Origin: Candidatus Methanovorans sp. | GTDB lineage: Archaea > Halobacteriota > Methanosarcinia > Methanosarcinales > Methanosarcinaceae | DNA length: 63,154 bases | Direction of reading: 5' to 3' | Assembly: GCA_020793565.1 (NCBI GenBank) | Contig: DQIP01000235.1 | Span: 1-63,154 of the forward strand | Part shown: piece after piece, positions 201 to 61,965 of the stretch | How positions within the stretch are numbered: the first letter of the stretch is position 1 | Layout of the letters: every line of letters starts with the position of its first letter | Notes under the pieces: generated by a model | Databases searched by the model: none | The model's input: only the letters and a program-made list of their open reading frames with translations | Told to the model about the DNA's origin: nothing | Translations under genes and position numbers: made by a program

Positions 201-1166
201 CTATAAGATCGACGGATTTTTCTTGTTCTTTAAGATCTCGCATACACGAGTCTTGCACTCAAAAAGAATTGTATCCATATTTGCAATAACATCGATTCCA
301 GCAGCACCCGCATGTCCTCCGCCTGTGCCCTGATAATGTTTGCTGATGTCTTCCATGATCTGTCCAAGATTTACTCCTGCGCTCACAGCATCACGTTTTG
401 CACGTCCACTTACTCGTATTGTATCATCACGGGATGTTCCTACAAGTGCCACATCTGCACCAATATTAACAAGCATTGACGATGCTGATCCTCCAAAAGA
501 ACTTACATTTGACAATACTACCAACCAGTTATTAACGCGCTCGACCTGTGCACGTTTGGCAGATTTGAGCATTGCAATGCGCATTGAGATATCCTGTGGG
601 GTGGCGGCCATCATTTCTAATACTTCAACATATTCAACACTGCTCATTTCTATAATATCTGCCATTGTTTTGAAAGTTGAAGGATTTGCGTGTTTGAAAT
701 GTCCCGTATCAGTTATGATACCTGTCATAAGACCAAGTGCTATCCGCCGCATTATCGGGGCTTCCATAAACTGCAGAACATTAAATACGATCTCTGCTGT
801 AGATGCTGCATTACGGTGCAGGAAAAATTCTGCATTCTCTGTCAGGGCCGTAGTCATATGATGGTCAATAACACAATAATTTGTAAGTTTTATGTCATTT
901 AACTGTGCGCTTGTAGAAGTATCGACAACAACTGTAAAATCGTAATCAAAAGGATCTGGTGTATCTACTACATCAATTTCCAGTTTGTCGATCAGGAGAG
1001 ATGCAACCCGGTTGCTTCCATCAACAAGACCTACAGTACCGCCAATGGCTTCCGATAAGGCAAATGCACTACTAACAGCATCCGGATCAGCATTACGGTG
1101 GCACAAAAATAAAATGTTGTGATAATCCAGAAGCCTGCTATAAAACTCAACTTCATTAACTTGCAT
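201..1166 (-). CDS. DHH/DHHA1 family phosphoesterase (NrnA/RecJ-like)
   Basis: The 321-residue protein has the DHH-family metal motifs in order: HRNADPDAVSS near residue 23, a DTS motif near 85, DHH (VIDHHMTT) near 101, and the C-terminal DHHA1 substrate motif GGGHAGAAG near 283. Members of this family hydrolyse short oligonucleotides, nucleotides such as pAp, or ssDNA using Mn2+. It is the last gene of the exosome superoperon, about 75 bp after prefoldin beta, which fits an RNA-turnover role such as removing oligoribonucleotide ends, but that is inference. The start is preceded by 'agaggt'. The family is clear; the substrate is not. Confidence 0.85.
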   Translation of the reverse strand: MQVNEVEFYSRLLDYHNILFLCHRNADPDAVSSAFALSEAIGGTVGLVDGSNRVASLLIDKLEIDVVDTPDPFDYDFTVVVDTSTSAQLNDIKLTNYCVIDHHMTTALTENAEFFLHRNAASTAEIVFNVLQFMEAPIMRRIALGLMTGIITDTGHFKHANPSTFKTMADIIEMSSVEYVEVLEMMAATPQDISMRIAMLKSAKRAQVERVNNWLVVLSNVSSFGGSASSMLVNIGADVALVGTSRDDTIRVSGRAKRDAVSAGVNLGQIMEDISKHYQGTGGGHAGAAGIDVIANMDTILFECKTRVCEILKNKKNPSIL

Positions 1167-1240
1167 TGATACCTCTGACCATCATTTAAAACAATAGAAA
1201 TGACAATCGCTTTAATTGATGCTCATGGTTATATCAGTAC

Positions 1241-1594
1241 TTATTGTGCCTGGGTTCCCATTGATTGCTGGAGTTGTTCCTGAAGTTGTGTAAAACGTTT
1301 AGAGATGCGCTCTTCCTGTTTGCTGATGGATTGAAGTCTCAATGACAGGGTTTCGCTCTTTTCATTCAACTTTGCAACTGTTTCTTCTTTACTGGATAAT
1401 ACCTGTAATTCTCCAACAGCCCTGTAAATAACAGCATCATCCGCCAATTTCCCAAGTTCTTCAAGTGCAATTTCAGATTCTTTTTTAATATTGTCAATCT
1501 GCCCTTTCTGCGCTGCAATCGCCTGTGCTTGCTGCTGAACTTGCTGCAATTGTGCTAACTGGTTCTGTACCTGTGGGGGTAATTCATTACTCAT
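1241..1594 (-). CDS. pfdB: prefoldin subunit beta
   Basis: The 117-residue protein is mostly coiled coil: an N-terminal helix rich in Q/A (QNQLAQLQQVQQQAQAI), a central hairpin region (VYRAVGELQVLSS-like), and a C-terminal helix with heptads ending in a Gln-rich tail. Length and layout match archaeal prefoldin beta, the 'arms' of the alpha2beta4 chaperone that passes unfolded proteins to the thermosome. In many archaea this gene sits in the same superoperon, next to pcc1, as here. It is translated after pcc1 with a 125-bp gap. Confidence 0.92.
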   Translation of the reverse strand: MSNELPPQVQNQLAQLQQVQQQAQAIAAQKGQIDNIKKESEIALEELGKLADDAVIYRAVGELQVLSSKEETVAKLNEKSETLSLRLQSISKQEERISKRFTQLQEQLQQSMGTQAQ

Positions 1595-1719
1595 TTTATT
1601 TCACCTGAAACTCCAATAATCACTAAAAGGATTTTAATGTTTCTATGAATGACGCGCAAAAAACCAAAATGCTCCTGACATACGTCTAAAACAAATACAT
1701 TGTTAGTAGTCTGGGGTTC

Positions 1720-1971
1720 TCATGTGTGACCAGTGGCCTGTGATATCTCATGTGCGACCTGTATCAGGCGTAGCCATGTATTCAAAGTTGAACGCATAGA
1801 TACGACATCTTCTGCCTCTACAGTTAAAACAAGACTTGAATCACTGTTTGACATTCTAATAATGGATCGGTTAGATACCGGAGTTTCAAGTTCTGGTAAA
1901 ATCGATTGGTAGATCGAATATGCATCGTCCGTTTCAAAAATAAATTCGGCCTTGAACTTCAATCGATTCAC
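1720..1971 (-). CDS. pcc1: KEOPS complex subunit Pcc1
   Basis: The 83-residue protein (NRLKFKAEFIFETDDAYSIYQSILPE... with a C-terminal helix WLRLIQVAHE) has the length and pattern of archaeal Pcc1, the dimerisation subunit of the KEOPS complex that works with Kae1/Bud32/Cgi121 in making t6A37 of ANN-decoding tRNAs. Its start overlaps the Brix gene stop by 4 bp (ATGA), so the two are translationally coupled. The family normally occurs at this exact place between Brix and prefoldin beta. Confidence 0.88.
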   Translation of the reverse strand: MNRLKFKAEFIFETDDAYSIYQSILPELETPVSNRSIIRMSNSDSSLVLTVEAEDVVSMRSTLNTWLRLIQVAHEISQATGHT

Positions 1972-2438
1972 TCCGAAAAATCAAATTTAAGACTTTTGAC
2001 CTTAAGACTAAAAATAAGATGATCCGAATTAGTAAAATCCATCCTATTATCATTAACTATGATACAACGTGGATTGGATGGATCATCTGCACGCTGGAAT
2101 GAGAGGCTTTCGACCAGTGTATCAGCAAGTTTAGACCTACCTACTCCTACAATAACAGGTTCAACTAATTTCAATTTTGAAAACTTTGAATTTTCAGGAT
2201 AGGACACTGTCATGTGAATTGACAGCAAGCAAAGACCATTTCCATCATATATTGCAAGACTTCCAGGATTTCCGTGGAATTCACCGATAATCAGGAAGGG
2301 ACTATTATGTGCAAGGTGTAATACCTCGCCCATGCCCATTTTTCCCCGGTTTACGTACTCGCAGTTAAAAAAGGTAGCTAAATATTTGCACAAAGTGCGA
2401 GTTCTACCGGATGGTTTGCGAGAAGAAGTAATTAACAT
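1968..2438 (-). CDS. Brix domain protein (Imp4-like ribosome biogenesis factor)
   Basis: The ORF track begins at 2516, but that extension runs through the rpoP gene. The ATG at 2438 (MLITSSRKPSGRTRTLCKYL) begins exactly at the conserved Brix N-terminus, 5 bp after the rpoP stop, giving 156 residues, the normal archaeal length. Brix proteins bind rRNA during ribosome assembly; the eukaryotic relatives Imp4, Rpf1/2 and Brx1 act in the nucleolus. The start motif S-S-R-K-P-S-x-R-T-R and the following Cys/Tyr-rich helix are visible. Confidence 0.88.
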   Translation of the reverse strand: MLITSSRKPSGRTRTLCKYLATFFNCEYVNRGKMGMGEVLHLAHNSPFLIIGEFHGNPGSLAIYDGNGLCLLSIHMTVSYPENSKFSKLKLVEPVIVGVGRSKLADTLVESLSFQRADDPSNPRCIIVNDNRMDFTNSDHLIFSLKVKSLKFDFSE

Positions 2439-2443
2439 ACTTC

Positions 2444-2581
2444 TTACTCTGCCTTGACTTGTTTTATTGAGGTCGGTCGCTCTTTTACGATTATCCGATG
2501 CCCACAATACGGACATCGAATTCCAGTATATTCATAATCGATCTCGACATCGCGTTTGCATCGAGTACACTTGTAACCCAT
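2444..2581 (-). CDS. rpoP: DNA-directed RNA polymerase subunit P (Rpo12/RPC10)
   Basis: This 45-residue gene is below the ORF-track cutoff. The reverse strand reads [20 protein letters not shown]... then [14 protein letters not shown] and ends ...QVKAE. The two CxxC knuckles 17 residues apart (CTRC, CPYC) plus the basic [10 protein letters not shown] tail are diagnostic for Rpo12, the small Zn-ribbon subunit of archaeal RNA polymerase. It sits between L37Ae and Brix, 6 bp after the L37Ae stop, its usual place in this superoperon. Confidence 0.95.
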
Positions 2582-2587
2582 GATTAC

Positions 2588-2875
2588 CTACTCTAGTACT
2601 TCTGTGGCTTTTTTAACTGTACGTATGACAGTCTGTCCAACCGATGTGGTTGGTAAATATGTTCCACCTGCAAAGGTGTAACCACATTTGCTACATTTCC
2701 ATATTCCTGTGCCAACTCTCTTCACAGTGGGGCGTGCACATTTTGAACACTTGTGCGGCATTCGCATGCGATCTTCAAGATCAGCTATCAATTTTCTGTC
2801 TCTTCTACCGTACCGTGTACCAAATCGACCTGCGGATCGGGATACCCGCCCTTTTCGTGTAAATTTTTTTGCCAT
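2588..2875 (-). CDS. rpl37ae: 50S ribosomal protein L37Ae
   Basis: The track ORF starts at 2893, but the conserved family start is [19 protein letters not shown] at 2875, giving 95 residues. A C4 zinc finger is visible as [22 protein letters not shown]. The N-terminal basic segment and the 'RYGRRDRK' motif are typical of archaeal L37Ae (eL43). It follows Rrp42 by 34 bp in the superoperon and precedes rpoP. Confidence 0.95.
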
Positions 2876-2909
2876 AAATAATGTCTCCTTCAATCGTGAA
2901 TCAAATCAA

Positions 2910-3689
2910 CTATATTTTTAAAAGGTGTTCCTCTCGCACCTTTTCAGCCTTTTTGCATGCAATCGTAACTGCTTGTAGCACTTGTTCCTCTGACAGTGCA
3001 CCTTCACCGCTTTTTTGCATTGCACATATCGAGCCGTCCTGATTAGATGTGATCGAGATCCTTGTTTCACAAACAGTCTCTTCATTACGTCCAGGATCTA
3101 CCATTAGCTCTCCGCCGATGTCAACCACTGAAATACACACTGGCATCTCACGGACAGGCATCATGAAATCTTCGCCTTTACCATTACGCTCAGCCGGAAC
3201 TATCGCAGTCATAAGTGCAGCAATCGCACCAAGAGATGCAGCATTTAGAATATTACCGTCATCATTTAGCACATGTACATCTATAAATACCATCCAGACT
3301 TCTTCTCCTTTCGTAATACACAACTTCTTTAAATCAATTGCGCCTGATTCACGAATTCCACGATCCGTCACACGAGCCATTTCAATAGCATTTTCTCGTG
3401 GAGGTCCTGATTCAAAAGTCGGTGATGCAATTGGGTTCAATTCCAGGCTGGTTATAATTACACCAACATCCGGCGAATCCGGAAACGGAGTACCGAGCTG
3501 AACTTTCACACCAACTAAAAGCTGTGTTGCGCCATATTGTACTTTTGCAGATCCTTCAGCTTTATCGATAACATGTGTCTCAAGCGTAATATCCCGAATC
3601 TCATCAAATGCACGACCATCTTCGCGCTGACCTTTGAGCATCAGGTTATAGATATAGTCTTTCTTGAGTTTTGACATCACTTCACTCAT
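2910..3689 (-). CDS. rrp42: exosome complex component Rrp42
   Basis: This is an RNase PH-fold protein of about 259 residues. Rrp42 is the non-catalytic partner of Rrp41 in the hexameric ring of the archaeal exosome, which degrades or A-tails RNA 3' ends. Visible signatures are the N-terminal [14 protein letters not shown] and the mid-region [20 protein letters not shown] prefer the ATG at 3689 ([14 protein letters not shown]) over the track start at 3698: it overlaps the rrp41 stop and has 'ggtgag' 5 bp upstream. Confidence 0.93.
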
Positions 3690-10150: not shown

Positions 10151-10328
10151 ATTTTTCAATCTGCTTTATTTTGTTTAAAAATATTATTTTGTGTCGGATC
10201 GTTTAAACTGAATTACTCTTGTTGCACCTTTGAATGGAAGATTTCAATCCAATGGGATTGTTCACTCAGAAAATCGGGCAAATATTCACAAAATGGTATT
10301 TGTATAGCTGGATATGATAAAATACTGA

Positions 10329-24292: not shown

Positions 24293-24802
24293 TCAATCTG
24301 CCTTTTCCATCCCTTTGCAAATCAAAAATCCCCTCGCACGTTCCGTATACCTGTACTCATTGACCTTATCCCAGAACCTTTTGGAATGATCGGGATACAA
24401 CAAATGCGCCATCTCATGCATGATGAGATAGTCCAGCACCCATTTTGGCATGTCTGCCAGCCTGTGCGATATCCTGATCGTGCCTTTTGCAGGCGTACAA
24501 CTGCCATTGCATGTGTTCTGGTTCGTCACGAACTTGATGGATGCTGTCTGCAATTTCCCGTTAAAGTATTTCTTGTTGAACTCATTGAAGCGCATATTGA
24601 GGTAATCGTCACCATTGAGTTCTCTTTTCAGGCGTTTTTTCTCGACCTTTTCCCTCATCTTCTCGATCAGTTCAGACTCTCTTGTTTTGCTCAGCCCTGC
24701 CGGAAGGTAGATCAACAGTTTATCGTCAACTACTTTCGCCTGCACGGTCTTTTTACGCTTATGGCTTCTTATAACCTCAATGGGTAATTCCTTGTTTTTC
24801 AT
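24293..24802 (-). CDS. YgjP/SprT-like zinc metallopeptidase (DUF45)
   Basis: The 169-residue protein contains the zincin motif HEMAHLLYPDHSKRFWDKV (HExxH plus downstream H), the hallmark of the DUF45/YgjP family, preceded by the substrate-strand region GTIRISHRLADMPKWVLDYLIMHE. In bacteria YgjP-like proteins are encoded near type I restriction genes or alone; a role in cutting DNA-bound proteins, as for SprT/Spartan, is possible but unproven. The family is usually 230-240 residues, so the N-terminal half is short here. Confidence 0.85.
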   Translation of the reverse strand: MKNKELPIEVIRSHKRKKTVQAKVVDDKLLIYLPAGLSKTRESELIEKMREKVEKKRLKRELNGDDYLNMRFNEFNKKYFNGKLQTASIKFVTNQNTCNGSCTPAKGTIRISHRLADMPKWVLDYLIMHEMAHLLYPDHSKRFWDKVNEYRYTERARGFLICKGMEKAD

Positions 24803-24968: not shown

Positions 24969-25026
24969 TTCCCAAACCAAACGATGTATATACTACATAG
25001 TAATACATATGAAAAGGAGATAAAAT

Positions 25027-25515
25027 ATGACTAAGGAAGAAATATTGAGCAAAGTGCTGGATATTTTAGAGGTTGGAAAACCAGATATGGAAGATTTTTC
25101 AAACCGTATTAAATATCAAAAGATTATCTATCTTTTACAAACATCAGGTCCATCTTTAGGTTATGGTTTCAATTGGTATATTAGAGGGCCGTATTCATCC
25201 CCTTTGGCACATGTGTTGTATAATATAAATGATACAACATATGAAAAAAGTAAAAATATAACATTTAACGATAATGAACGTATTGAATCTTTAATAACAG
25301 ATTTTAAAAACAAATTGGGATCTGATATCGACAACGTTGATTATTTAGAAGTGTTAGCATCACTACACTACATAAACAAATCAACATTTTCTGGAAATGG
25401 TGAATTTTCGGATTTAAAAAAGAAGTTATTAAATGTTAAACCGAATTTGATGCAGATTGACAATATCAATGATCTTGTTCAAAGAGCATGTGACGACCTT
25501 CCAGATTATAACTAA
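25027..25515 (+). CDS. YwgA/SocA-like helical protein, partner of HD protein
   Basis: The 162-residue protein has the pattern KYQKIIYLLQ...YGFNWYIRGPYSSPLAHVLYNIN, which resembles YwgA-family proteins and the wider SocA/DUF4065-type fold, where a 'Y-x-x-G-P-Y/F-S' turn is conserved. In Bacillus ywgA is next to the HD protein gene ywfO, the same pairing as here. The stop is 10 bp before the HD gene ATG, so the two form an operon. Codon use is strongly AT-rich, unlike mutS next door, which suggests transfer. The role is unknown: regulator, antitoxin-like or sensor subunit of the HD enzyme (inference). Confidence 0.7.
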   Translation: MTKEEILSKVLDILEVGKPDMEDFSNRIKYQKIIYLLQTSGPSLGYGFNWYIRGPYSSPLAHVLYNINDTTYEKSKNITFNDNERIESLITDFKNKLGSDIDNVDYLEVLASLHYINKSTFSGNGEFSDLKKKLLNVKPNLMQIDNINDLVQRACDDLPDYN

Positions 25516-25525
25516 AAAATCGTTT

Positions 25526-27319
25526 ATGACTGTCGATGAACTCATCACTTATAAAGAATTTTATGACAATGTCCACGGATTTATCAAAGTTACAGAATTG
25601 GAAAGTAAAATAATTGATTCTCCTTTTTTTCAAAGATTACGCAATATCAGACAATTAGGATTAATAGACTATGTTTTTCCTGGGGCTTTGCATAACAGGT
25701 TTAACCACTCCTTAGGAGTGCTGCAAATAGCAGATAAAATGATAGTCAGTCTTCAGGAAAACTACGGTGAAAAGTATTTGTTTAGCTGGGATGAGATTTT
25801 AGAAAATGATAGTGTCAAATTCGCAAATATTCTAGAACAAGAATACGATATTGATTGGGCAAAAACAGCAAAGTTTGAAAAAAATAACAATGATAACTCC
25901 ATGAGAGTATCCACTTCAACAAATTGCATTTTGCTGAAGCTTAACGATGAAAAAACAGAGATAAACCTCGAAAAAGATGGGGATATAATTGATAAATTTC
26001 GATTAATTGTGAAAATTGAAAATAATAAGATCAACATCTACGGAAAAGATAAAGAAATAACTGGCAAACGTGAAATATTAAGAATGGCTGCTTTACTTCA
26101 CGATATTGGGCATTATCCTTTATCCCATCTTGTTGAAAGTGTTATTAGAACTGATGCAAAATCAAAAATTAAATCTGATGAGATATCTTTGGAAAAAAGC
26201 AATGACAATAAAATTGATTTAGATGAAACTGATATCCAAAAATTGATTTGTGATATACACAACCGTGAGTCATCATTTGATTTCTCTCATCACGAATTAA
26301 TGGCAACTGTTGTCATCTTTAAGACTCAAATTCACAAAATTTTAAAGGAATGTTTTACAACTGAACAAATACGGTCAATAGCGCAAATTATAGCAGGAAA
26401 CTATCCTGGACCTTTGGGGTTAATAATACATTCAGAATTAGATGCAGATCGATTTGATTACTTACTTAGAGATTCTCATCAAACAGGAGTAACATATGGT
26501 CTATTTGACCTTGACCAAATTATACGTAATCTTGAATACGTATCAAAAGACAATAAACTGGCTGTGAACGAAAAAGCTAGGAGAGCAGTAGAACACTATC
26601 TGGTTTGCCGATATTTCTTATATAGTACAGTAATTTTTCATAAAACATCTGTAGCATTTGAATTAATGATAAAAAAGGTGTATAGCGGATTAATGGAAAG
26701 AAAATTGTTTTGGTCCTACTTCGATTTGATTGATATATTCAAAAGCCACGACTCTGCAAAAGAGTACCTGATGTATGACGATTCATATTTTTTTAACGTG
26801 CTGAAAGATGTGGCAAATGGTAAAAGAGATTGGGATAGTAGTATTGAATACGATATTCCAGATGATTTTTTATTCGAACTAATTGATAAAGTATTAAATC
26901 GCAAGCCTCTAAAAGAATGTATTGAAGAACAGAAATTTATAAATCCATTAGAAGAAGAACCTTTTAACTCTCGTTTTTTAGATGAAATTGTTGGAGAATC
27001 TATCATAAAAAAGGCTGAAATTGAAGATTATTGGTACATTCCTTTTGAAATGTCAATTCCGATTACTGATATCCACCCATACAGGAGTTCAAGTGATATT
27101 TCGAAATCACCTAGGGTGCATGACGAAACGATTAAAATTGTAAAAAAATCAGATTCGGGTGTAATTGAAAAAACATCAATTAATTTAGTTGATGACAAAA
27201 CATCAATTGTGCATGTTCTTAGTAAACATGAATTGAAAATCAACAGATTGTATACAAAAAATGATGAATACAAAGAAAAATTGCGAAAGGCTTTTGATAA
27301 TATTTCAGTACAAAAATAA
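25526..27319 (+). CDS. HD-superfamily phosphohydrolase (SAMHD1/dGTPase-like)
   Basis: The start is set at the ATG at 25526 (MTVDELITYKEFYDNVHGFI), not the track start inside the upstream gene, giving 597 residues. HD metal residues appear in order: NRFNHSLGVLQIA near residue 60, the HD pair LLHDIGHYPLSHLV near 193, HHELMATVV near 255, and DADRFDYLLRDSHQTGVTYG near 312. That layout matches dNTP triphosphohydrolases of the SAMHD1/YwfO group. An insert of ~80 residues separates the first H from HD, and ~250 extra residues follow at the C-terminus. dNTP depletion is a known antiviral strategy. AT-rich, likely acquired. Confidence 0.82.
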   Translation: MTVDELITYKEFYDNVHGFIKVTELESKIIDSPFFQRLRNIRQLGLIDYVFPGALHNRFNHSLGVLQIADKMIVSLQENYGEKYLFSWDEILENDSVKFANILEQEYDIDWAKTAKFEKNNNDNSMRVSTSTNCILLKLNDEKTEINLEKDGDIIDKFRLIVKIENNKINIYGKDKEITGKREILRMAALLHDIGHYPLSHLVESVIRTDAKSKIKSDEISLEKSNDNKIDLDETDIQKLICDIHNRESSFDFSHHELMATVVIFKTQIHKILKECFTTEQIRSIAQIIAGNYPGPLGLIIHSELDADRFDYLLRDSHQTGVTYGLFDLDQIIRNLEYVSKDNKLAVNEKARRAVEHYLVCRYFLYSTVIFHKTSVAFELMIKKVYSGLMERKLFWSYFDLIDIFKSHDSAKEYLMYDDSYFFNVLKDVANGKRDWDSSIEYDIPDDFLFELIDKVLNRKPLKECIEEQKFINPLEEEPFNSRFLDEIVGESIIKKAEIEDYWYIPFEMSIPITDIHPYRSSSDISKSPRVHDETIKIVKKSDSGVIEKTSINLVDDKTSIVHVLSKHELKINRLYTKNDEYKEKLRKAFDNISVQK

Positions 27320-27413: not shown

Positions 27414-30104
27414 ATGAGCAAACTTACCCCTGCGATGCAGCAGTACTACGACGCTAAAAAACAGCATAAGGATGCGCTGATATTCTTCAGGATGGGTGAT
27501 TTTTACGAATCGTTCGGAGAAGATGCAAAGACCATCGCGCATGAACTTGAGATCACGCTCACAACACGCGGCAAGGGAAAGGATGGCGAAAAGATGCCGC
27601 TTGCAGGGATACCCTATCATGCTATTGACAACTACCTTCCACGCCTTATCAAAAAAGGATACAAGGTAGCCATCTGCGAGCAACTCGAAGATCCGAAAAA
27701 AGCCAAGGGCGTTGTGAAAAGAGGAGTTGTGAGGGTGGTTACACCCGGGACTGTAATCGATTCATCCATGTTCGCCGACCCTGCAAACAATTATCTCATG
27801 GCGGTATCCGGAAACACGACCGGATCTAAGTTTAAGTTTAAATTCGGAGTCTCATTTCTTGACCTCTCCACAGGAGAGTTTCTCACAACAGAGTTCAAGG
27901 ATGACGCCCCGTATGACATGATAGCAAGCGAAGCCGCACGAATGCGGCCTGCCGAATGTATCATGCCGCCTGCCCTGTTCGAAAATGTGGGAATTGCCGA
28001 ACGGCTTGGGGAACTAAAAATTATAGTCCACGAATTCGATGCCAGTGCATTCGGGATCGAAAACTCAAAAAAGCGATTGCAGGAGCATTTTAATGTCGCC
28101 ACGCTCGAAGGCATGGGATGTGAAGACCTGCCCTGTGCCATTTCCTCTGCCGGCGCAGCACTCCAATATGCCACAGCAACACAGATGCGTGAACTCGGAC
28201 ACATCCATACCCTCAAGACCTATTCGGAATCCGAGTTCATGATACTGGACTCCATTACCCTGCGAAACCTTGAAATTACAAAGAACGTGCGTGAGGAAGG
28301 AAATGGCACATCGCTTTTGCGGGTGCTGGACGAGACAAAGACACCAATGGGCAGCAGGCTGCTCAGGAAATGGCTGCTCAAGCCGCTCATCTCTGTAAAG
28401 GACATCAACAGCAGGCTTGATGCTGTCGGGGAAATGAAAACAAACACCTTCCTTCGCTTTGACCTGCGCTCAAAACTGTCATACGTTCGCGATATCGAAC
28501 GCCTCATAGGGCGGGTCGTGTACGGGAATTCCAATGCCCGTGACCTTGTAGCCCTCAAAAGTTCGCTTGAGGTCGTGCCTGCCATCATTGATTCCCTGAG
28601 TGATGGAATTGATCCGGAAATGCTGAACAATATCAGGCAGGGACTTGAGGACTTCATTGAACTTAAGGACCTGACCGAACTTATTGAACGGGCAATCGTT
28701 GATGAGCCCCCGGTAACTGTCAGGGAAGGCGGGATGATAAAATCAGAGTACAACGAAAAACTGGATGAACTTAAGGACATGGCAAGGAACGGAAAACAGT
28801 GGATCGCCAAATTCCAGCAAAAAGAGCGCGAGCGGACAGGTATTAAATCTCTCAAGGTCGGGTATAATAGGGTATTCGGGTACTACATCGAGGTCACAAA
28901 GATCAATATCGCACAGGTTCCTGATGATTACATCAGGAAACAGAGTCTGACCAATGCCGAGCGGTTTTACACACCCGAACTCAAAGAACGTGAGGGAATG
29001 ATCCTCTCTGCCGATGAGAAAATGGTGGCTCTTGAATATGAACTTCTTACCGGGATCAATACTATCATTGCCGGTCGATCAAAAGAGTTGCAGCAGACTG
29101 CTGCATTGATAGGTGAACTTGATGTGATCGCAAACCTTGCCGATGTGGCGGAAAACAACAATTACACGCGACCGGATATCAGCAGCGACTGCAGGATACT
29201 TATCAGGGATGGACGGCATGTGGTTGTGGAAAACTCGGTGGAGGGAGGTTTTGTTCCGAATGATACAGAAATGAACTGCACGGATAACCAGTTTATGCTG
29301 GTCACAGGACCGAACATGGCAGGTAAATCCACATACATGCGCCAGATAGCACTTATTGTGATCATGGCACAGGCAGGTTCTTTTGTTCCTGCATCGCATG
29401 CATCCATAGGAATAACCGACAGGGTGTTTACAAGGATCGGCGCGTTTGATGACCTTGCAAGCGGGCAGAGCACGTTCATGGTGGAGATGATCGAACTTGC
29501 CAATATCCTGAACAATGCCACACCGCAAAGCCTTGTGCTCCTGGATGAGATCGGGCGAGGTACGAGTACCTATGACGGGTACAGCATTGCTAAAGCAGTG
29601 GTGGAATACATACACAATAAAGGACGGGTAGGGGTGAGGTCGCTTTTCGCAACGCATTACCACCAGCTCACAGACCTTGCAAATACACTCAAACGTGTCA
29701 AGAACTACCACATTGCAGTGAAGGAAGACGGACATGAGCTTGTATTCCTGCGCAAGATCATGCCGGGTGCCACCGACAGGAGTTATGGTATCCATGTAGC
29801 ACGACTTGCAGGAGTTCCGCATAAGGTTACTAAAAGGGCGAATGAGATATTGCATGATATTGAGAACGAGAGTGTAATGAGCAATGAGCGGGGCAGCAGG
29901 GGGCGGACGAGAGGCAAGACCAATGCCAGGTACACCCAGTTGATCCTTTTTGATTCGGATGATACAAAGGAGCACGATAAAAGCCATCCTGTCCTGGATG
30001 AGCTGAACAATATGGATGTCAACGGAATGACACCACTGGATGCATTGAATACGCTTAATGAACTTAAGAAAAAAGCGGTAAATGATGGGGAATCACCAGC
30101 ATGA
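27414..30104 (+). CDS. mutS: DNA mismatch repair protein MutS
   Basis: The 896-residue protein has the MutS1 layout: mismatch-binding domain with the Phe-x-Glu motif (FFRMGDFYESFGEDA) near residue 35, connector, lever and clamp, and the ABC-type ATPase with VTGPNMAGKSTYMRQIA (Walker A), LVLLDEIGRGTSTYDG (Walker B), and the FATHYHQLT segment. It recognises mismatches and loops and recruits MutL. It overlaps mutL by 4 bp (ATGA). The gene is GC-richer than the upstream island. Bacterial-type MutS/MutL are known in Methanosarcinales through transfer. Confidence 0.97.
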   Translation: MSKLTPAMQQYYDAKKQHKDALIFFRMGDFYESFGEDAKTIAHELEITLTTRGKGKDGEKMPLAGIPYHAIDNYLPRLIKKGYKVAICEQLEDPKKAKGVVKRGVVRVVTPGTVIDSSMFADPANNYLMAVSGNTTGSKFKFKFGVSFLDLSTGEFLTTEFKDDAPYDMIASEAARMRPAECIMPPALFENVGIAERLGELKIIVHEFDASAFGIENSKKRLQEHFNVATLEGMGCEDLPCAISSAGAALQYATATQMRELGHIHTLKTYSESEFMILDSITLRNLEITKNVREEGNGTSLLRVLDETKTPMGSRLLRKWLLKPLISVKDINSRLDAVGEMKTNTFLRFDLRSKLSYVRDIERLIGRVVYGNSNARDLVALKSSLEVVPAIIDSLSDGIDPEMLNNIRQGLEDFIELKDLTELIERAIVDEPPVTVREGGMIKSEYNEKLDELKDMARNGKQWIAKFQQKERERTGIKSLKVGYNRVFGYYIEVTKINIAQVPDDYIRKQSLTNAERFYTPELKEREGMILSADEKMVALEYELLTGINTIIAGRSKELQQTAALIGELDVIANLADVAENNNYTRPDISSDCRILIRDGRHVVVENSVEGGFVPNDTEMNCTDNQFMLVTGPNMAGKSTYMRQIALIVIMAQAGSFVPASHASIGITDRVFTRIGAFDDLASGQSTFMVEMIELANILNNATPQSLVLLDEIGRGTSTYDGYSIAKAVVEYIHNKGRVGVRSLFATHYHQLTDLANTLKRVKNYHIAVKEDGHELVFLRKIMPGATDRSYGIHVARLAGVPHKVTKRANEILHDIENESVMSNERGSRGRTRGKTNARYTQLILFDSDDTKEHDKSHPVLDELNNMDVNGMTPLDALNTLNELKKKAVNDGESPA

Positions 30105-53336: not shown

Positions 53337-54990
53337 TGGCACAATTCCATAATCTAGTGATTTTCCACTTTTTACGCCAAACATACCCCCTTAATCAGCT
53401 AAATACTGTTTTCCAATCACTTATGATTTTCTAAAATTTGATCTTCAATACTCAAATATCTAAAAACCAATTTTTTTCAGCATGAAAACAAAAAAACTGC
53501 AGCCAATATGGCATCTAATTACATAAAAATAGATAGCTACGGCTCAACCCCTATAAAAAGTATCAATCCAAAGTATATCAACTAATTGCAAAAGGTCTGA
53601 ACAATCCGAAAAGTTCTAACAGTGTTGGTTTTATGCCTTCGAACATCCCCGCTCTTTTCATAGCAGCAAGTTTCATCTGATAAAGAATGCCTCTCTCGGT
53701 TCGGAATTGTTTTTTCCGGTGTGTTTTAAGACTCGTTGAATAAAAGTTCTCAATGGCGTTATTCGTAGCAGGAGCGCCCTCAAAATAGTGAAATGCTGTA
53801 ACATTCATCCAATGCTTTTTAATCATTTTCAATCGATACTGTATATTTTCATCAAACGAATCGATTTCATCCATCAGCTCAGTGAAATGTTCTTCAGCTT
53901 TTTCAAGACTGTTTATTTCAAGATTTTCTTTATTCCTTCTACGAGCAAGTTCTAATTCGTGTACATAGTTGTAGAAAACCTTTTTTGCGATTTTAATCCA
54001 TGATTTATAAGCATTTTCATCCTGAATGATTTCAAATTCTTCCAATTCGAGTTTGCGGAGCATTTCAATCTCTTTCTCACGATTGTAGAAAATATTCAAT
54101 AATCGGTATTTCAATAATTCCTGCGCAATGGATGTATGTCTCGGAAAATCATTGACGACAAGCTTGTTTAAATGAAACAAGCAATACTGATGTATTAAAT
54201 TATCTCCAAACACTTCTTTTAAGACTGGAGGATAACTTGAGTAAAAATCTGTTATGATGAATATAGGTTTTGATGTGTCTAAGTTCGCCACTAAAAATTG
54301 CTTTATTGTTTCAGGATCTTTCTTATCAAACAGTTCATCTGCTACTGGTCTTTTGGTATTAGCATCCAATAGTGTAAGGCGGTATTTTTGAGTGCGTCCT
54401 TTCTTTGGAAACTGTTCATCGTAGTGGACTATTAAAACATTCTCTAAAGGGGGAATTTCGGTGTTTTCCATAGCACGATTAAATTCCCTGAAAATTGTAC
54501 TTTTGGATTGTGGGAAAATAAGACGCATTAGCCTAGAAATCACATCATAGGCAACATGATTTAATCTAAGCATCTGATATAAATCTCCCAGCAAATCGAT
54601 AAACAAGGTTTTGAGTTGCTCCCAAACACTTCGATCTTCTTCGAGATTTTCATTACATGGTTTACAGATATATTTGCCGATTTTAATCCTGCCCATACCT
54701 TTTTTGGTGTAACGGTTGAAGCCATTGTGCACCATTTTACGAGCACATATAGGGCATTGAGGTGGGTTTTTCTTGCGAAAAATATCGTTTTCAGTATATT
54801 CATATTCATTGCCAAATTCACCAAAAATCTTCTGGAGAATCTGGGTTTCGGAAAAATTACCAAAAGTAGTGTTTATCATCACCATAAATGTCACAGATAC
54901 TATAACTACTTTTAAATTTATATAAATATGCATCCGATGTGATATTATTACTGTTTTTTTACTGTGTAACTGAATTATGGGACTGTGCCA
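53337..54990. mobile_element. complete insertion sequence, ~1.65 kb
   Basis: The left end 'tggcacaattccataatctagt' and the right end (reverse) 'tggcacagtcccataattcagt' are inverted repeats with 18 of 22 identical. They bracket one full-length transposase gene. I see no clear target duplication. The element sits between dapF and the amidohydrolase gene. Confidence 0.8.
53578..54933 (-). CDS. DDE transposase (MULE-like/ISNCY-type)
   Basis: The 451-residue protein appears intact. N-terminal zinc-ribbon DNA-binding region: CPICARKMVHNGFNRYTKKG ... YICKPCNENL. DDE core: VLIVHYDEQFPKKG (first D), PIFIITDFYSSYPPVLKEVF (second D), and PATNNAIENFYSTSLKTHRK (E). HQYCLFHLNKLV between them is a 'C/D-x-x-H' element of MULE-like transposases. 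Start is uncertain (an ATG at 54885 is also possible). I cannot name the IS family with certainty. Confidence 0.85.
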   Translation of the reverse strand: MHIYINLKVVIVSVTFMVMINTTFGNFSETQILQKIFGEFGNEYEYTENDIFRKKNPPQCPICARKMVHNGFNRYTKKGMGRIKIGKYICKPCNENLEEDRSVWEQLKTLFIDLLGDLYQMLRLNHVAYDVISRLMRLIFPQSKSTIFREFNRAMENTEIPPLENVLIVHYDEQFPKKGRTQKYRLTLLDANTKRPVADELFDKKDPETIKQFLVANLDTSKPIFIITDFYSSYPPVLKEVFGDNLIHQYCLFHLNKLVVNDFPRHTSIAQELLKYRLLNIFYNREKEIEMLRKLELEEFEIIQDENAYKSWIKIAKKVFYNYVHELELARRRNKENLEINSLEKAEEHFTELMDEIDSFDENIQYRLKMIKKHWMNVTAFHYFEGAPATNNAIENFYSTSLKTHRKKQFRTERGILYQMKLAAMKRAGMFEGIKPTLLELFGLFRPFAIS

Positions 54991-57769: not shown

Positions 57770-58462
57770 ATGGAACGACCCTACACATTCATAAACTCAG
57801 CAATGTCTGCAGACGGTAAGATCTCGACAAAGGAACGCAAACAGGTCAGGATCTCGGGTAGTGTGGATTTTGACAGGATGGACGAACTTCGTGCAACTTC
57901 GGATGCTGTGATGGTTGGAATTGGTACTGTTCTTGCAGATGATCCAAGTTTAACCGTTAAGTCCGTGGAACGCAGGGCGAAGCGCAAGGACAGTGGGCAT
58001 GAGGAAAATCCGATCAGGATAATTGTTGATAGCCAGGCAAGAACACCAATTGATGCTGATATTTTCAAAAAAGGCAAGGGAACCCGGATTATTGCGGTAT
58101 CACAGTCTGCTCCGGTCGAGAGGGTTAATGCCCTGGGGAATACGGCTGTGGTGATCGTTGCTGGTGAGAACAAGGTGGACCTGTCTGAACTTGTTGTACG
58201 GTTAAAGATGATGGGTATCAACCGTTTGATGATCGAAGGCGGTGCAAGTTTGAATTTTGGTATGCTCTCAAGCGGTCTTGTGGATGAGATATATAGCTTT
58301 GTAGGTAATTTAATAATCGGCGGAACCTCGTCGCCTACACTTGTTGATGGGGTGGGTTTTGAAGAGAATGAAATCTGTGGATTGGAATTTGTATCATGCG
58401 ATAGAATGGATGACGGTGTACTTTTGAAGTGGCGCGTAAATGCGGCACAGGCATTTGATTAA
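57770..58462 (+). CDS. 2,5-diamino-6-ribosylamino-pyrimidinone 5'-phosphate reductase
   Basis: The ATG at 57770 has 'aggtga' 6 bp upstream and gives MERPYTFINSAMSADGKIST..., 230 residues; the GTG in the track is three codons earlier. Family motifs: SADGKIST, DAVMVGIGTVLADDPSLTV and RLMIEGGASLNFGML. This is the RibD C-terminal-type reductase that in archaea uses NADPH in the riboflavin and F420 (FO) pathway. Alone, no operon partner. Confidence 0.93.
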   Translation: MERPYTFINSAMSADGKISTKERKQVRISGSVDFDRMDELRATSDAVMVGIGTVLADDPSLTVKSVERRAKRKDSGHEENPIRIIVDSQARTPIDADIFKKGKGTRIIAVSQSAPVERVNALGNTAVVIVAGENKVDLSELVVRLKMMGINRLMIEGGASLNFGMLSSGLVDEIYSFVGNLIIGGTSSPTLVDGVGFEENEICGLEFVSCDRMDDGVLLKWRVNAAQAFD

Positions 58463-58494
58463 CTGTATTTGTTTAGATGGTTTCAATAAAATGT

Positions 58495-58670
58495 AGATGC
58501 ACAGCCTATATACCAGATCCCGTGCAGTAATTCCGCCGCAGGCGGCGTATTTCGAGCATTATAATGAATATAACTCTATTGAATGGACCCTAACATTTTT
58601 AATAATATTGGTGTTAAAAAACGCTAAACAAATACGATTAACTTATTTGGTGAGGCGGCATACGCGCCAT
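58495..58670. repeat. dispersed repeat B, copy 3
   Basis: It has the palindrome 'ccgccgcaggcggcg' at 58533 and a second GC block 'ggcggcatacgcgcc' at 58654, 136 bp in all between ends as in copy 2. The interior shares 'tggaccctaa', 'taataatattgg' and 'aaaaaacgct' with copy 1. The remaining 58463-58827 shows no gene; AT-rich promoter-like sequence is near 58780. Confidence 0.7.
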
Positions 58671-60355: not shown

Positions 60356-61216
60356 ATGAAACTTCTAACGCACAAACAAAGAATCCTCTTAAAAGTCATA
60401 GAGGAACTTGCTGAAAAAGGCATTTCATCTAAATTTATGCTGGTGAAAAATCTGTTTTTACTTTATAAAGAGAATAATATGGGGCATCTAATTAAGTTTT
60501 ATAATTTTTATCCCTATAAATATGGCCCATTTTCTAATGAATGTTATGCTGATCTTAGTAAACTTGAACGTGCGGGGCTGGTAGTCGAGGAAAGAAAACA
60601 TCTAGTACTAACCGAAAAGGGAAAACAGGCGGCAAGTACGTCAAACCGCAAGGCGTTATATGTGGTGAAAAAAACAGCTAATAGGTTTAAGTCAGACCGC
60701 GAAATAAGGAAGTATGTTTATAGCCATTATCCCGAATACACAGTAAAAAGTGAAATTGCTCCTACTCCTGAGAAACGATATACTTCTGGGATATTTACCA
60801 TCGGTTATGAAGGCAAGGATATAGATTCTTTCCTTAATATTCTTATAAAAAACGAAATTGACGTAATTGTTGATGTTAGAAAAAATCCTTTTAGTATGAA
60901 ATTCAATTTCACAAAAAATAAATTGAAAAATTATCTTAAAAAAGTCGATATTCAATATGTTCATATTCCAGAGCTTGGGATTGAAGGGAAGTTAAGAGAT
61001 GATCTTTCAACAATGGAAGATTACCAAAACCTTTTCGAACAATACAAGGCCACGACTTTGAAAGAACGTTCAGATCAAATTGAACGTATTGTAAAATTAG
61101 GTGAAAAACACAGAGCATCATTGATGTGTTTTGAAGCTAGCAAAAACTTTTGTCATAGAGGTATTATTGCCGAAAATATAAAAATACAATATGATGTGGG
61201 GGTAACACACCTTTGA
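60356..61216 (+). CDS. winged-helix (YwgA/SocA-like) plus DUF488 fusion protein
   Basis: The 286-residue protein has two parts. Residues ~5-100 (KQRILLKVIEELAEKGISSK, FYNFYPYKYGPFSNECYADL, ERAGLVVEERKHLVLTEKG) form a helical/winged domain with the Y-x-Y-GP-F-S turn also seen in the 25027 protein. Residues ~145-286 are DUF488: FTIGYEGKDIDSFLNILIKN, IDVIVDVRKNPFSMKFNFTK and LMCFEASKNFCHRGIIAENI with the C..CHR motif. The stop overlaps the next gene by 4 bp. AT-rich, likely acquired. Function not known; possibly a nuclease or nucleic-acid-processing defence component. Confidence 0.8.
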   Translation: MKLLTHKQRILLKVIEELAEKGISSKFMLVKNLFLLYKENNMGHLIKFYNFYPYKYGPFSNECYADLSKLERAGLVVEERKHLVLTEKGKQAASTSNRKALYVVKKTANRFKSDREIRKYVYSHYPEYTVKSEIAPTPEKRYTSGIFTIGYEGKDIDSFLNILIKNEIDVIVDVRKNPFSMKFNFTKNKLKNYLKKVDIQYVHIPELGIEGKLRDDLSTMEDYQNLFEQYKATTLKERSDQIERIVKLGEKHRASLMCFEASKNFCHRGIIAENIKIQYDVGVTHL

Positions 61217-61965
61217 ATGAGAATATTCTTGTATTGGTCAGGGTTACACCTGAAAAAAGCAGTAATCACGGACATCTGGTATGTGTAGCAGGAATAAATG
61301 AAAATCGAGAATGGAGGCGGTTATATCCCATTCAGTTCCGTTATGGGGATAAATCGATTAATTTCAAAAAAAGAGATCTGATTGATGTCACTCTTGCAAT
61401 GCCGGATAACGATAAAAGAAAGGAGAGCAGAAAAGTTATCAAACACACAAATTTGAACTCGCAACTAAGTAATGATAAAGTTCGTGAATGGATTTCGCCT
61501 TTAGTAACTTCTATTGAAAAACTGAATGAAAAGAATGCCAGTTTGGGAGTTATAAAACCTGAATTATTAGATGTTGAGATTAAAATAAACAGTACTGAAA
61601 TTTATGATAAACAAACATATTTTTCGATGGCTGGTGATTATTTATCAGAAAGTCGAGAAAAAGTAAAGATGCCAGTCGAATTTAGATACATTTTCAAGTG
61701 TAAGGATGAACCTGAATGTACCGGACATAAAATAATTCTGATTGATTGGGAATTAAATGAACTTGCAAGAAATATCATGCGGAAAGATAAGGATCCCGAT
61801 ATTATAAAAGAAAAAATTAAGAAAAAACTATTTGATGATATGAAAACAAGGGATCTGTATTTTTTTATGGGTACACATTTTCGCTTTGGCACATGGATAA
61901 TAATTGGTATTTTTTATCCACCACAACCAGAAAAAACAGTTCAGAAAACATTGTTTGATATATAA
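61213..61965 (+). CDS. dual-OB-like protein, partner of DUF488 protein
   Basis: The 250-residue protein starts with TTG overlapping the upstream stop. The N-terminus NILVLVRVTPEKSSNHGHLVCVAGINENREWRRLYP... resembles proteins described as having two OB-like domains that sit with DUF488 genes; the second half carries KMPVEFRYIFKCKDEPECTG and GHKIILIDWELNELARNIMR and ends FMGTHFRFGTWIIIGIFYPP. I recognise the pairing but not the function. The tail QKTLFDI is a common C-terminal end of this type. Together with the DUF488 gene it forms a compact two-gene module. Confidence 0.7.
   Translation: MNENILVLVRVTPEKSSNHGHLVCVAGINENREWRRLYPIQFRYGDKSINFKKRDLIDVTLAMPDNDKRKESRKVIKHTNLNSQLSNDKVREWISPLVTSIEKLNEKNASLGVIKPELLDVEIKINSTEIYDKQTYFSMAGDYLSESREKVKMPVEFRYIFKCKDEPECTGHKIILIDWELNELARNIMRKDKDPDIIKEKIKKKLFDDMKTRDLYFFMGTHFRFGTWIIIGIFYPPQPEKTVQKTLFDI

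Follow-up and report, generated by a model that had tools for sequence, protein, structure and literature searches.

What do the two AT-rich genes encode that directly precede mutS in a 63,154-nucleotide stretch of Candidatus Methanovorans sp. (contig DQIP01000235.1, in the following called the window), and how did the second of them acquire a segment that its orthologues lack? A preliminary description of this DNA had seen here a YwgA-like protein coupled to an HD phosphohydrolase, i.e., a candidate defence module. The explanation that we favour overall, and hold to be reasonably probable, is a toxin-antitoxin-like pair of a deoxynucleoside triphosphate (dNTP) triphosphohydrolase (dNTPase) and a restraining partner, with a separate mobile insert in the hydrolase gene. 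The observations of the preliminary description were confirmed, and its interpretation was partly supported. The two open reading frames (ORFs) of the pair and their start region are as follows.

25016–25019, + strand: GGAG, resembling a ribosome-binding site, 7 nt 5′ of the ORF1 ATG (read directly)
25027–25515, + strand: ORF1 (P0001), 162 aa, YwgA/DarG-C-like, proposed restraint (antitoxin-like) subunit
25526–27319, + strand: ORF2 (P0002), 597 aa from ATG, HD hydrolase of the SAMHD1/YwfO superfamily

ORF1 and ORF2 are co-oriented and separated by a gap of 10 bp, in agreement with the coupling described earlier, and the strong ribosome site mentioned there corresponds to the GGAG motif. The pair is also much more AT-rich than mutS, with a GC content of 30.5–31% compared with 49% in mutS and ~40% in most of the window.

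ORF2 matched the Pfam families HD (2.7e-8) and HD_assoc_2 (2.2e-6). Its residues H61, H192-D193, H196, H201, H256 and D306 were invariant in an alignment of seven homologues, and the full metal-binding residue set is intact in the SAMHD1 order, as had been read from the H..HD..HH..D pattern. Solved relatives in the PDB are 2hek, 2o6i/3irh/4lrl from E. faecalis, 2q14 and SAMHD1. Profile alignments link ORF2 to 2hek and 2o6i, and a Foldseek search with the ORF2 model gave 3irh, 2hek, 4lrl, 9mr6 and SAMHD1 as best matches, with E-values down to 1.6e-14. By motif, metal residues and modelled fold, ORF2 is a predicted dNTPase of the SAMHD1/YwfO-type HD superfamily, and the fold class proposed in the preliminary description holds. 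Substrates differ across the HD superfamily, and ORF2 might act on another nucleotide, e.g., an alarmone or a second messenger in defence. We consider this quite improbable, because the nearest solved relatives include, in addition to SAMHD1, the E. faecalis structures 3irh and 4lrl with bound dNTPs, and because the SAMHD1-type motif order is kept.

For ORF1, no Pfam match was found above cut-off. It matched an internal part of DarG profiles in PADLOC (1.2e-8) and, below the cut-off, in NCBIfam (1.1e-7); residues 12–82 align to positions 173–237 of 329 in the DarG profile. The AlphaFold model is mostly helical, with a predicted local distance difference test (pLDDT) value of 93.9, and its sole confident fold match in the PDB was the M. 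tuberculosis DarTG complex 7yk3 (Foldseek probability 1.00, template modelling (TM) scores 0.69/0.60). Chain length and profile matches lead us to infer that this match is to the toxin-binding part of DarG. Moreover, the ORF1-family profile matched a 169-aa gene of Priestia at 29–35 bits, which lies directly downstream of a YwfO-like HD gene. ORF1 is by this match a real relative of YwgA, as first described, and the ywgA-ywfO adjacency that had been stated for Bacillus is seen in Priestia with reversed gene order.

Elsewhere in the phylum, ORF1-family members adjoin and converge with PIN-domain genes (L120, L125, L127, L132 and L151; two of these five PIN matches fall just below the Pfam cut-off). 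In two archaeal genomes a YwgA-like gene is directly followed by a PemK/MazF toxin gene (L138, 1045–1959, − strand; L144, 1076–1962, − strand). The DarG fold together with these PIN and PemK/MazF neighbours suggests that the ORF1 domain is a generic partner for toxic effectors. An antitoxin-like restraint is the best reading of the ORF1 role that sequence and model offer. In the preliminary description the small protein was thought to sense or restrain the HD enzyme; of these two, it is the restraint that fits the antitoxin-like fold.

The archaeal YwgA-like/PIN pairs at the five loci are closely spaced or overlapping, a candidate toxin-antitoxin arrangement in its own right. Another candidate defence module of two genes, likewise AT-rich (32%), lies in the window itself at 60356–61965 (+ strand); it encodes a DUF488 protein (PADLOC PDC-M19A, 8.4e-83), followed by a PDC-M19B protein (4e-122). 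The N-terminal part of the DUF488 protein matches DarG weakly; a DarG-like domain therefore recurs as a partner within the window.

The insertion site of the ORF1-ORF2 pair is bordered by two genes.

24293–24802, − strand: YgjP-like metallopeptidase gene (Pfam YgjP-like, 5.4e-20), left border
27414–30104, + strand: mutS, right border, 89–91% identical to its congener orthologues

In the congeners G001, G003 and G005 these two genes are ~200–240 bp apart with nothing between them, and in the congener G002 a 957-aa type IIG restriction-methylase lies in this place. Absence of the pair from the congeners rules out its vertical inheritance at the mutS site. The preliminary description had stated that vertical conservation at this site in all Methanosarcinales would speak against its reading; such conservation was not found, since congeners lack the pair at mutS and its relatives occupy differing loci. 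Our survey of 150 Methanosarcinales genomes contained seven close copies including that of the window. Close ORF1 relatives (54–64% identity) occur in six other genomes, each directly beside an ORF2 orthologue and in the same order. Contig matches identified five of the six hosts as Methanoperedens BLZ2, Methanoperedens STD1_19, Methanolobus vulcani, Methanosarcina sp. 2.H.T.1A.6 and a Methanosarcinales metagenome-assembled genome. The neighbours of the pair are different in each genome, and the loci are unrelated. Among these neighbours are a type III restriction-modification (RM) operon immediately adjoining the pair at L052, a type I RM system near it (L055), the candidate systems PDC-S27/S60 near it (L054), and a GmrSD-type gene at a distance of ~4 kb (L053).

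More distant pairs were found in the genomes G056 and G112, in the latter with the HD gene split, and on the viral contig L154, which encodes a YwgA-like protein and a 499-aa HD protein in the same order and with the same 10-bp gap. The split HD gene of G112 (L057, 9473–11453) consists of a 90-aa and a 390-aa ORF, divided just before the HD motif and near the position of the insert in the window ORF2. Degenerate patterns for ORF2 or its insert retrieved no relatives from IMG/VR, which was a weak test because the ORF2 patterns also missed the HD gene of L154, found only via its neighbour. A tblastn search with ORF1 in plasmid and phage records gave no match. The pair is mobile, moving horizontally and patchy in its distribution, not vertically inherited.

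We compared the pair with three known systems. With YwfO/YwgA of Bacillaceae it shares an HD gene adjacent to a YwgA-like gene, both families matching by profile, whereas there the gene order is reversed and the neighbours in Priestia are of a housekeeping chromosomal type. Archaeal ORF2 also has a longer C-terminal part, and the window copy in addition contains the insert. With DarTG, ORF1 shares the fold of the 7yk3 chain and part of the DarG profiles. Unlike in DarTG, ORF1 has no macrodomain, a DarT gene is absent, and the partner is an HD hydrolase; DarTG membership was ruled out by the missing macrodomain and DarT. In Clover, the HD dGTPase CloA is toxic without CloB, a nucleotidyltransferase that makes p3diT (PMC12265719). 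An HD dNTPase effector restrained by the product of a partner gene, as described for Clover (PMC12265719), is what we propose by analogy for the window pair. In contrast to CloB, ORF1 is an all-helical DarG-like protein, and its restraint would therefore be exerted by direct binding. ORF1 matched no nucleotidyltransferase family, its model is mostly helical and DarTG was the sole confident fold match, which rules out membership in Clover. The pair combines known kinds, i.e., an HD dNTPase effector and a DarG/YwgA-type partner, and is a new variant of these.

We propose that the two genes form a module that moves horizontally and would act like a toxin-antitoxin or abortive-defence system. ORF2, as a predicted SAMHD1/YwfO-superfamily enzyme, would drain the dNTP pool; ORF1 would bind and restrain it through its DarG-like toxin-binding fold, and infection or another stress may relieve this restraint. 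Fold class, catalytic residues, pairing, mobility and neighbours form the observed basis of this proposal. As in type II toxin-antitoxin systems, the genes are adjacent and co-oriented, and their pairing is conserved in the six other close pairs and on L154. The pair is probably anti-viral.

Several points weigh against this proposal. Confidence in the ORF2 model is moderate (pLDDT 65), and the Foldseek E-value between ORF1 and 7yk3 is weak (0.012) despite the probability of 1.00. In this strain, the insert may compromise ORF2 function. A defence context applies to part of the copies: restriction or candidate defence genes were found near four other copies, and none was visible within ~8 kb at L050 and L051, i.e., at two of the seven pairs. 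Finally, in Priestia the adjacent YwfO-like and YwgA-like genes sit amid hemQ, pta and other housekeeping genes; ywfO-ywgA pairing alone is therefore no proof of defence. It would agree with a housekeeping or accessory regulator of the dNTP pool, in which ORF1 tunes ORF2 during normal growth. We regard such a regulator as possible but unlikely for the archaeal pair, which is patchy in Methanosarcinales with seven close copies in the genomes surveyed, is absent from the congeners at this site, changes its locus from genome to genome, often near restriction or candidate defence genes, and is also found on a viral contig. A toxin-antitoxin-like module hence remains our preferred reading, and the pair lets one ask whether one small toxin-binding fold restrains chemically different effectors, i.e., DarT, PIN, PemK/MazF and HD dNTPases.

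The second question concerns the insert in ORF2. The ~80-residue insert noted in the preliminary description is real and has 89 residues, which are missing from all six close ORF2 orthologues. Rather than being characteristic of the enzyme family, it is a mobile element present in many unrelated proteins. Its features in the window, and those of a non-coding relative, are as follows.

25774–26041, + strand: proposed transposable element within ORF2, 268 bp, coding for its residues 84–172 (89 aa)
25774–25785, + strand: left end of the element, GTATTTGTTTAG, exact repeat
26030–26041, + strand: right end of the element, ATCAACATCTAC, three differences from CTAAACATATAC
25766–25773, + strand: left presumed target-site duplication, GGTGAAAA, 5/8 bases equal to the right copy, decayed and alone not significant
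26042–26049, + strand: right presumed target-site duplication, GGAAAAGA
58465–58635, no strand assigned: 171-bp non-coding element sharing the 12-bp terminal inverted repeats, GTATTTGTTTAG...CTAAACAAATAC

In the ORF2 model the insert forms short helices and a β-meander in a loop before the HD helix, with moderate to low confidence, and the segment belongs to no Pfam family. Hosts of the same segment, checked with Pfam, include the DNA primase small subunit (PriS), RNA polymerase Rpb1/A′, CDC48, alanyl-tRNA synthetase (AlaRS), a T2SSF/TadC-like protein, DprA and patatin. The insert was present in 70 of the 150 Methanosarcinales genomes with up to 29 copies per genome; the genome of the window has three. 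None of the copies listed had internal stops, and nearly all lie in long ORFs. One CDC48-type ATPase fragment (L107, 1–1953) contains three copies.

A clean gain of the insert was seen in PriS. PriS of G002 carries it, and PriS of G000, G001, G003 and G005 aligns without it, at 92–95% aa identity upstream of the insertion and with open frames of 395–396 aa compared with 486 aa in G002. The gain amounts to 90 codons or 270 bp. The ends of the element are 12-bp terminal inverted repeats, GTATTTGTTTAG...CTAAACATATAC, and the corresponding pattern GTATWTGTTTAG...CTAAACAWATAC gave 36 exact repeats in the genome of the window versus two for a control pattern. Synonymous codon choice is conserved at these ends: the first Leu is TTG in 26/42 copies versus 20/342 in the interior, the final Leu is CTA in 31/46 versus 57/342, the element-end Ser is AGC in 27/31 versus 58/236 and the element-end Ile is ATA in 39/44 versus 101/386.

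We then compared the flanks of 44 copies from different hosts. They matched each other at a single offset, D=9 (z 4.8, with 0/2000 permutations reaching the observed identity; other offsets z ≤2.4), which corresponds to an 8-bp target duplication plus the terminal G of the element. A 9-bp duplication was rejected, because in near-exact pairs the ninth base turned out to be this G. The 6-bp direct repeats near the insert were not significant alone and were replaced by this family-wide test. Perfect 8-bp duplications were found at L214 (GATAAAGG) and L288 (CAAAAATT), and the non-coding 171-bp element of the window is flanked by the perfect duplication GATTAACT at 58457–58464 and 58636–58643. A related but decayed sequence, akin to this 171-bp element, begins near 10296. 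In 1.28 Mb, 17 elements, coding and non-coding, had repeat pairs with a duplication of ≥7/8, versus none with the reversed repeat; this count is support and not an independent rate, because the loci were partly chosen by the repeat.

One forward frame of the element is open in 55/55 copies, and the other two are closed in 55/55. Element length is mostly 261–262 bp, typically 262 bp, and the usual net insertion of 262 + 8 = 270 bp therefore keeps the reading frame; the window copy has 268 bp, and its duplication has decayed. We propose a non-autonomous transposable element with ends GTATWTGTTTAG, an 8-bp target duplication and one open forward frame. Upon insertion in the right frame and orientation it would extend the host protein by a small predicted α/β domain and leave the reading frame unshifted; the element is presumably mobilised in trans by a transposase. 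It resembles miniature inverted-repeat transposable elements (MITEs) in its terminal inverted repeats, target-site duplication, short length, multiple copies and lack of an own transposase. An intein was excluded, as splice residues are missing: the conserved ends are YLFSW and LNIY, and the next residue is variable.

Against this proposal counts that an autonomous element with these repeats was not found, and that the repeat-flanked ORFs inspected, among them ORFs for a 493-aa ATPase and a maturase-like protein, contained no clear transposase. The 493-aa ATPase ORF in G002 (L267, 10–1933) is flanked by two exact copies of the terminal repeat in inverted orientation and is possibly part of a larger cargo-bearing element, or so placed by chance. 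The window also encodes a 451-aa DDE transposase-like ORF at 53578–54933 (− strand) with weak IS66/IS1 matches. No copies of the insert terminal repeats adjoin it, and no link to mobilisation of the element is thus apparent.

In orthologous hosts that share the insert, the ratio of nonsynonymous to synonymous substitution rates (dN/dS) within it was mostly 0.13–0.3, and in most pairs the host was the more strongly constrained. Exceptions were L178/L184 with a value near 0.55 and one pair too similar to judge. The insert is therefore kept as protein and is not decaying DNA. This purifying selection, and the location of nearly all detected copies in long ORFs, would also agree with an ordinary promiscuous domain spread by domain shuffling. 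We consider that explanation very improbable: synonymous positions at the element ends are fixed far beyond the interior, inverted repeats and 8-bp duplications are present, and non-coding elements with perfect duplications end in these repeats too. The PriS copy has 26% GC within a gene of 45% GC; over 62 copies there was no uniform GC difference between insert and host gene (mean difference −0.02), and a foreign signature was seen in some copies only, such as that in PriS.

In a phylum-wide draw, the insert was found in 35 of 295 genomes, mostly from one further family (f10). We take the genus of the window to be ANME-3 and f10 to be related to ANME-1. Several f10 genomes have an RNA polymerase A′ insertion in common at the same place (L187, L190 and L191, ~910–3255; L182 and L186), which was apparently inherited vertically.

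It is thus very probable that methane-oxidising and related archaea harbour an element family with protein-domain cargo, which by its typical length preserves the frame and has placed one ~90-residue segment in scores of unrelated proteins, including core enzymes of transcription, translation and replication, where it then comes under purifying selection. Its copy in the window sits immediately ahead of the catalytic HD helix in a predicted defence-type dNTPase. The closest known kind are the Rickettsia palindromic elements, protein-coding MITEs that are short and non-autonomous and that recurrently insert in-frame into unrelated genes and add peptides (PMC10969869). Compared by description, these are bacterial and ~150 bp long, whereas the window family is archaeal, typically 262 bp long, and has defined 12-bp repeats, 8-bp duplications, a domain-sized product and essential hosts, e.g., RNA polymerase A′, AlaRS, PriS and CDC48. 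In the literature searched we found neither the motif strings nor a description of the element, which is no proof of novelty.

For annotation, this means that what looks like an extra domain in a protein of these archaea can be a copy of the element. The insert offers a natural example of essential proteins being extended by a transposable element, which supplies a domain-sized segment and does not disrupt them, and it makes testable the old question whether selfish DNA can create multi-domain proteins on a large scale.
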